NCBI GenBank assembly: GCA_030613545.1
Contig: JAUWLU010000010.1
Location: forward strand, 1-33,692
Reading direction: 5' to 3'
Length of the DNA: 33,692 nt
From: Desulfuromonadales bacterium
Lineage (GTDB): Bacteria; Desulfobacterota; Desulfuromonadia; Desulfuromonadales; Syntrophotaleaceae
The notes under the pieces were generated by a model. It had not been told where the DNA came from, ran no database searches, and was given only the letters and a program-made list of their open reading frames with translations. Positions 5,622-14,783 of the stretch are shown here, in pieces (the first letter of the stretch is position 1; every line of letters starts with the position of its first letter). A program made the position numbers and the translations under genes.

Positions 5622-5648
5622 GCAGATACCGGATCAAGCAGGGTTGAG

Positions 5649-5679
5649 GGTCGCTTCGAAGTGAAGCGGCCTTTTTTTT
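5649..5679 (+). terminator. Intrinsic terminator after the Lon-like gene
   Basis: GGTCGCTTC-gaagt-GAAGCGGCC stem followed by T8. Confidence 0.88.
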
Positions 5680-5882
5680 CGGACCTATAACCCAAACAAA
5701 GGTTGATGCTTTCGCAAAAAGTCATGAGATGGCTAAGCAAAAATTTCGGCCTACAAGGCGTAGTGATTTTTTAGGGGTGAAGGCATACATATGGTATGTC
5801 GAAGTCTTGAAAAAACGCTGCAACGCAGTAGGACGGACTTTTTGCGACGCCATCACCTTTGTTTTGGTTATAGACCCGAAAA
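5676..5882. repeat. 27-nt imperfect inverted repeat enclosing MITE-like copy 1
   Basis: Left arm 5676-5702 TTTTCGGACCTATAACCCAAACAAAGG; right arm 5856-5882 CCTTTGTTTTGGTTATAGACCCGAAAA; 24/27 complementary without gaps. Confidence 0.85.
5705..5854 (+). mobile_element. 150-bp MITE-like interspersed element, copy 1
   Basis: Starts GATGCTTTCGCAAAAAGTC and ends GACTTTTTGCGACGCCATC (imperfect TIRs); about 93% identical to copies at 7300-7449 and 14634-14783; central GGCATAC-atatg-GTATGTC hairpin. Confidence 0.85.
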
Positions 5883-5905
5883 TTATCGGAAATATGGGCC
5901 GATCA

Positions 5906-6017
5906 GGCGATTTTGCAGTTGGTTCATGGCAAGTCCGGCAGCCTCCTAGGCCTGTTACCCAGAGATTTAAGATTGTCGACAAAATCGCCGTCATCCACTA
6001 GAATTGGATGACGGCGG
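5906..6017 (+). promoter_or_regulatory. Candidate attenuator/riboswitch-like leader with competing helices
   Basis: GGCGATTTTG (5906-5915) is perfectly complementary to CAAAATCGCC (5980-5989). This overlaps the 5' arm of terminator CGCCGTCATCCA (5986-5997)/TGGATGACGGCG (6005-6016). Confidence 0.4.
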
Positions 6018-7053: not shown

Positions 7054-7275
7054 ATGACCAAGCTGAACAATCGGGATATCGAACGTGCCAGTCTGGAAAC
7101 GGAACTGAAAAGGGGATTGCAGAGGACCGACGAGGATCTGAGTATTATGGAGCGCCACGCTGCGGAACTGGCGATGGTGGAATACGGCATCCAGTTAGAC
7201 ATGCGTAAATGGGATCGTGAATATAAGGATGCCCGTCTGCACAGTGTGCCGCGGGCGATGAAACATCTGCGGTAA
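7054..7275 (+). CDS. Small hypothetical protein (73 aa, charged, helical)
   Basis: ATG with strong RBS (gaggagg); MTKLNNRDIERASLETELKRGLQRTDEDLSIMERHAAELAMVEYGIQLDMRKWDREYKDARLHSVPRAMKHLR. Confidence 0.65.
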   Translation: MTKLNNRDIERASLETELKRGLQRTDEDLSIMERHAAELAMVEYGIQLDMRKWDREYKDARLHSVPRAMKHLR

Positions 7276-7299
7276 ATTGTCTGCTATAGAGACAAACAA

Positions 7300-7449
7300 G
7301 ATGCTTTCGCAAAAAGGCATGAGAGGGCTAAGCAAAAATTTCGACCTACAAGGCGTAGTGGTTTTTCAGGGGTGAAGGCATACATATGGTATGTCGAAGT
7401 CCTGAAAAAGCGCTGCAACGCAGTAGGGTGGGCTTTTTGCGACGCCATC
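7300..7449 (+). mobile_element. 150-bp MITE-like interspersed element, copy 2
   Basis: Same termini and length as copy 1; flanked by 6-bp direct repeats AAACAA (7294-7299 and 7450-7455). Confidence 0.9.
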
Positions 7450-7490
7450 AAACAAAGAGCCCCTCAAAAAGAGGGGCTCTTTGTTTGTCT
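7450..7490. terminator. Bidirectional terminator hairpin whose left arm was split by MITE-like copy 2
   Basis: AAACAAAGAGCCCCTC-aaaaa-GAGGGGCTCTTTGTTT-GTCT; the partner AGAC of the outer stem is now at 7290-7293, left of the element. Lies between convergent genes. Confidence 0.85.
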
Positions 7491-7523
7491 AAAAGTTCTA
7501 TGGGGATACTGGCGAATGGGCTG

Positions 7524-7907
7524 CTACTGTTCCTGGTCTTCTGCCGGCCCTTCTTCTGCCGGCGCTTCTTCTACCGGCGCTTCTGCCACCTTTATGCTCT
7601 CGATTTCCTGTTCCAAGGCCGCGGCTTCCGCCTTGAGGTTGTCAAGGGTGTGAAATTGTTCCTGCACCTCGTTCTTTGCCAGAATGTCGGGGGCTCCGCT
7701 TTCACGAATGTCGTCGATCAACTTACCCAAATCGCCATGACAGGTGGCGATCTTTTTATGCAGCGAAGCGAGGTCAATTTTTTTCTGCACAATGCGTTTA
7801 TATTTGTTGGCCTGAAATCCGGCCACGTGCAGAGTCTTTCGGGTGGAGTCCCACAGTTTTTCGCTGGTTGTTTTTCTTTTTTCCTTGGGCGAGCCCTGTT
7901 CTTCCAT
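7524..7907 (-). CDS. Hypothetical coiled-coil protein with acidic Glu/Ala/Pro-rich tail
   Basis: 127 aa; RBS AGGAGG-like upstream on minus strand; tail APVEEAPAEEGPAEDQEQ encoded by degenerate GCCGGCGCTTCTTCT-type repeats. Confidence 0.7.
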   Translation of the reverse strand: MEEQGSPKEKRKTTSEKLWDSTRKTLHVAGFQANKYKRIVQKKIDLASLHKKIATCHGDLGKLIDDIRESGAPDILAKNEVQEQFHTLDNLKAEAAALEQEIESIKVAEAPVEEAPAEEGPAEDQEQ

Positions 7908-8068
7908 AGTGTCCTCCTGAAAGATTAATGATCAAAAGTTGTTAAAATATTACCATATCTGTGTAGCCCGTCAAGACTCCGCTCTATACCTTTGCGGGGA
8001 GAGGTCGGTCCGGGACAGGGGCAAAATGAAATTTATATGCCAGCATGTGACTGGGGAAGGGAAGGCAA

Positions 8069-14633: not shown

Positions 14634-14783
14634 GATGGTGTCGCAAAAAGTCCATCCTACTACGTTGCAGCGTTTTTTCAGGACTTCGACATACTTTATG
14701 TATGCCTTCACCCTTGAAAAACCACTACGCCTTGTAGGTCGAAATTTTTGCTTAGCCATCTCATGTCTTTTTGCGAAAGCATC
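14634..14783 (-). mobile_element. 150-bp MITE-like interspersed element, copy 3
   Basis: Reverse complement of copies 1/2 (about 93% identity), same 150-bp length; flanked by direct repeat AATTAT (14628-14633 and 14784-14789). Confidence 0.9.

Follow-up and report, generated by a model that had tools for sequence, protein, structure and literature searches.

Did a short mobile element interrupt an existing terminator between two convergent genes, and can transcription of both genes still end there? This question was raised by one intergenic region in the genome of a sediment bacterium of the Desulfuromonadales (hereinafter referred to as G000; an assembly of 403 contigs), within an analysed stretch of 33,692 nucleotides that we call the window. 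The two genes facing this region encode conserved hypothetical proteins of 73 and 127 aa, and neither protein gave a match in Pfam or NCBIfam searches. The features of the locus are as follows:

7054 to 7275, plus strand: left gene of the convergent pair, conserved hypothetical protein of 73 aa
7290 to 7293, plus strand: AGAC, the outermost 4 bp of the left arm before the insertion, now severed from the hairpin; its partner in the empty site is GTCT (7487 to 7490)
7294 to 7299, plus strand: left copy of the target site duplication (TSD) AAACAA, read from the sequence
7300 to 7449, plus strand: MITE-like element of 150 bp, copy 2 in the window, with ends GATGCTTTCGCAAAAAG and CTTTTTGCGACGCCATC
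7450 to 7455, plus strand: right copy of AAACAA, read from the sequence; in the predicted fold it restores the A-tract in the arm as well as the minus-strand U-tract TTTGTTT (terminator of the minus-strand gene)
7450 to 7490, both strands: predicted bidirectional terminator hairpin left after the insertion, based on folding and the hairpin of congeners
7456 to 7465, plus strand: inner left arm, AGAGCCCCTC
7466 to 7470, plus strand: hairpin loop, AAAAA
7471 to 7490, plus strand: right arm, GAGGGGCTCTTTGTTTGTCT
7524 to 7907, minus strand: right gene of the convergent pair, conserved hypothetical protein of 127 aa

The element begins with GATGCTTTCGC, finishes with GCGACGCCATC, and is four positions off the consensus of 61 copies. 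The longest open reading frame over it (7386 to 7928, plus strand) starts inside the element and then runs antisense across the gene for the 127-aa protein. When both flanks were joined with a single AAACAA, the region read AGACAAACAAAGAGCCCCTC-AAAAA-GAGGGGCTCTTTGTTTGTCT, a perfect stem (20/20 bp). An earlier note on this DNA had claimed this restored palindrome, with AAACAA as the duplication at an insertion point in the left arm, and every base that it reported was present. Its description of the split arm as the ascending one holds for the plus strand; for the minus-strand gene the same arm is the descending arm plus the U-tract, because the hairpin is symmetric and the genes are convergent.

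Of the 14 genomes of the family, 13 contain both genes, which adjoin convergently there (73-aa gene on the plus strand, 127-aa gene on the minus strand). An element-free, G+C-rich hairpin was found in this intergenic region throughout the rest of the family, and also at additional named loci. The arms of the empty site were AGACAAACAAAAAGCCCCAC..GAGGGGCTTTTTGTTTGTCT, AGATAAACAAAGAGCCCCGC..GCGGGGCTCTTTGTTTATCT, and AGACCAACAAAGGGCCCC..GGGGCCCTTTGTTGGTCT in three congeners (G001, G002, and G003, respectively), and the intergenic sequence of the nearest named relative, JABXKU010000009.1 (Desulfuromonadales bacterium isolate 42485_Bin_1; locus L081), was that of G003. The reconstructable empty site that the earlier note had proposed between the convergent genes therefore exists in all three congeners as one palindrome of about 20 bp. 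It was single and element-free as expected, but its letters (AGACAAACAAAAAGCCCC, AGATAAACAAAGAGCCCC, and AGACCAACAAAGGGCCCC) differed from those predicted. Since the congeners have diverged (77–84% identity in the 73-aa protein), the exact ancestral sequence is an inference.

Five of the 20 pairs were altered on both sides in the three congeners compared with the reconstructed G000 site, a number reached in none of 500 shuffles. Paired cells amounted to 97.5% in the congener comparison, as against 38–60% when it was slid. Two of the five compensatory changes are pairs 4 and 5, which flank the insertion junction between AGAC and AAACAA; the pairing of AGAC was kept in all three congeners, with a double change from C-G to T-A at the fourth pair. 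These changes indicate that, until the element inserted, the outer arm was paired and maintained within the hairpin. A non-palindromic sequence in element-free relatives, which the earlier note had named as evidence against its reading, was looked for in the three congeners, and a palindrome with compensatory changes was found instead. Moreover, none of 1,500 random A....T positions in G000 lay in a stem scoring ≥16, and none of 1,148 flank-matched positions (taken from the flanks of other copies) lay in a stem scoring ≥14, so that the 20-bp palindrome is not due to chance.

These data bear on the proposal that the palindrome is of later origin, the hairpin or the repeat arrangement having arisen with or after the element, or that the junction is an assembly artefact. 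The G000 assembly does break often within the element repeat, and two contigs (C49 and C296) have one flank in common with different partners. Against this, an element-free equivalent hairpin with covariation lies between the same genes in three congeners, and an exact TSD is unlikely at a chimeric joint; we regard the proposal as extremely improbable. The element-free orthologous hairpin argues instead that the hairpin is old and that the insertion is specific to the G000 lineage. Flank matches imply that some other insertion sites are common to congeners (e.g., loci L035/L037 and L045/L047), and the site at 7300 to 7449 is not among them. On C49 and C296 themselves, the copies concerned (loci L018 and L030, respectively) have a common left element flank and different right flanks, which is probably an assembly chimera at the repeat, or else strain variation.

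The 150-bp element is MITE-like. Its consensus is short, non-coding, and without a transposase gene, and the terminal inverted repeats (GATGCTTTCGCAAAAAGTC versus GATGGCGTCGCAAAAAGTC) are identical at 16 of 19 consensus positions. Among the 63 G000 copies with both flanks, an exact TSD of 6 bp was found in 38 and one of 7 bp in seven, whereas exact matches at 3, 4, or 5 bp numbered 0–1. Two further copies are located in the window:

5705 to 5854, plus strand: copy 1, no TSD, between inverted ends of another repeat; six differences from the consensus
14634 to 14783, minus strand: copy 3, 6-bp TSD AATTAT; nine differences from the consensus

A first look over the G000 genome gave 290 candidates, of which all 40 that were scored were confirmed, and exact ends numbered 171 and 194; contig and locus sequence totalling about 596 kb was examined in G000. 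Across the order, 80 of 136 genomes gave matches, covering 28 of 53 genera, with up to 95% identity in another family (G094). An autonomous partner was sought in the examined loci as pairs of terminal inverted repeats 0.4–3.5 kb apart with a body of their own, and none was identified. Searches by end pattern in the complete genome G001 and in G093, G117, and G054 gave none of insertion-sequence size, and no mobilising transposase with these ends was found in these searches or among the ends listed for G000 (the first 100). The right end GATGGCGTCGCAAAAAGTC was near-exact across genera, and the left end was variable or absent (L031 to L054; G001, G054, and G117). Tandem right ends were seen at a spacing of about 95 bp at three loci in G054 and of about 152 bp in G001 (1258494–1258948). 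A 76-bp short form in L199 (4326–4401) retains both ends of the element but lacks most of its interior.

Copy 1 lacks a duplication because a pair of inverted ends from a different repeat encloses it (window 5680 to 5878), and this arrangement is a chimeric or nested repeat. The repeat ends follow the pattern CGG[AG][CT]CTATAACC[CA]AAACAAAGGT, of which a 17-bp core occurs exactly 10 times in the genome. Such an end lies beside a remnant of an IS1595-type (ISXO2-like) transposase in L243 (PF12762, E 4.9e-24), and in L241 the junction of AAAGGT with TGATGCTTTCGC is the same as at copy 1 and is joined to a different body. In G003 (L081), glnK, amtB, and a gene for a porin-like protein (approximately 2.4 kb) separate a Lon-like gene from cysZ; in G001 and G002 as well, cysZ is preceded by the porin-like gene. 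The glnK-amtB-porin-like block is absent from G000 (window 5622 to 6007), with the chimeric copy 1 in its place; the sole Amt match in G000 is a paralogue (37% identical) on another contig.

The target of the family is an AT-rich hexamer with A at position 1 (36 of 38) and T at position 6 (33 of 38), with pyrimidines ahead and purines behind. It could be supposed that the family prefers intrinsic terminators or palindromes and that this locus is one instance. Copy 2 sits in a perfect 20-bp hairpin and a copy in L200 (TSD AAATTT) in an imperfect 11-bp one, and insertion sequences that target palindromes are known. When hairpins at the insertions were compared with those at random and flank-matched positions, however, terminator targeting was rejected: stems scoring ≥10 were found at one of 41 insertions versus 11 of 1,148 matched positions (Fisher p = 0.34), and only three of the 41 had such a stem within 60 bp. 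The AT-rich hexamer with its pyrimidine-rich 5' and purine-rich 3' context accounts for the target, and we regard the preference as highly unlikely. A literature search for terminator-targeting MITEs found no paper. With AT-rich A....T hexamers rather than terminators as the target of the family, the choice of site is attributed to chance, and as one among a few hundred insertions the locus needs no special explanation.

As expected of intrinsic terminators, the empty-site hairpin is a stable, G+C-rich stem-loop at a gene end (20 bp, about −38 kcal/mol) that is kept in relatives with covariation. Its predicted fold energy was −38.2 (plus) and −37.5 (minus) kcal/mol, with z about −9 to −10, compared with −31.0 (plus) and −31.9 (minus) kcal/mol for the occupied site. 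In the empty site both strands carry the U-tract TTTGTTTGTCT, which is T-rich, broken by G, and able to pair fully with the A-tract; a simple consensus terminator scan flagged the minus-strand register and not the plus strand. An Rfam search gave no hit at the gathering score; a rimP-leader match over the element and terminator (minus strand, E 0.15) was below threshold and was taken as chance. After the insertion 17 pairs remain, of which 16 come from the TSD and the inner arm, as the earlier note had stated, and one, which it had not counted, from C7449 of the element with G7487. The stem is thus 17 rather than 16 bp, since the last base of the element replaces the displaced C of AGAC.

Loss of the outer 3–4 bp is predicted to lower stability by about 6–7 kcal/mol, and the RNA of the element is predicted to fold strongly (z −5.95). 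Both observations would fit a view in which the insertion abolished the terminator in one or both directions, leaving the long hairpin of the element to take over or transcription to read through. This is very unlikely: 17 bp with the entire G+C core are left, folding of the complete locus still predicts the hairpin, and the 8 bases immediately past the core, TTTGTTTG, are the same as before on both strands, from the original sequence on the plus strand and from the right AAACAA on the minus strand. Without the duplication, the minus-strand tract would pass directly into GATGGCG. Folding and the retention of the U-tract on both strands suggest that the predicted terminator probably persists after the insertion.

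Taken with the congener sites, this very probably means that a non-autonomous MITE entered, at a chance site and in the G000 lineage only, the left arm of an older, predicted bidirectional intrinsic terminator of convergent genes, of which 17 of 20 pairs were re-formed. A transposase supplied from elsewhere would have inserted the 150-bp element at AAACAA with a stagger of 6 bp; this hexamer was then doubled by repair, as indicated by the TSD and the empty sites. The right AAACAA and the last C of the element would then re-form the stem pairs. Lying downstream of the hairpin core, the plus-strand U-tract was unaffected, and the minus-strand U-tract, as the complement of the interrupted arm, is rebuilt by the duplication. 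Both genes probably still terminate at the hairpin.

Similar elements have been described in other bacteria. The Chunjie MITE of Geobacter uraniireducens is 178–235 bp long (compared with 150 bp for the element here), occurs in tens of copies, mostly intergenic, and has conserved terminal repeats and direct repeats (PMC10969869). Both are multicopy MITEs of the wider Desulfuromonadia lineage, a likeness that is one of description only. QMITE1 and QMITE2 of Coxiella, MITEAba12 of Acinetobacter, and other bacterial MITEs are short, non-coding, high-copy elements with terminal inverted repeats and target duplications, for which effects on transcript structure have been proposed (PMC5896051, PMC6382973, PMC10969869); their architecture is shared by the element here, again by description only, and their hosts differ. 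The hairpin itself resembles bidirectional intrinsic (Rho-independent) terminators of convergent genes in its symmetric G+C-rich stem, its A-tract and T-tract sides, and its conserved position. Unlike in ordinary bidirectional terminators, one arm was broken by a mobile element and the U-tract was restored by the target duplication.

The event is an ordinary MITE insertion in a predicted terminator, of a kind already known, with unusually complete documentation. Because the occupied and empty states are both known, the locus could be used to measure how much displacement a terminator tolerates before failure, and the paired states could also show how a duplicated hexamer repairs a bidirectional terminator. 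The wider value lies in the element family, which is very abundant, present in over half of the genomes sampled from the order, and without a known mover. We tentatively suggest, as a possibility somewhat short of even, that it represents an undescribed, order-wide repeat family of the Desulfuromonadales, moved by a transposase that makes 6-bp duplications at A....T and with much stronger conservation of the right end than of the left, and that terminators withstand its insertions because their U-tract is regenerated by the duplicated AT-rich hexamer. If so, this locus would be a natural test of terminator robustness.
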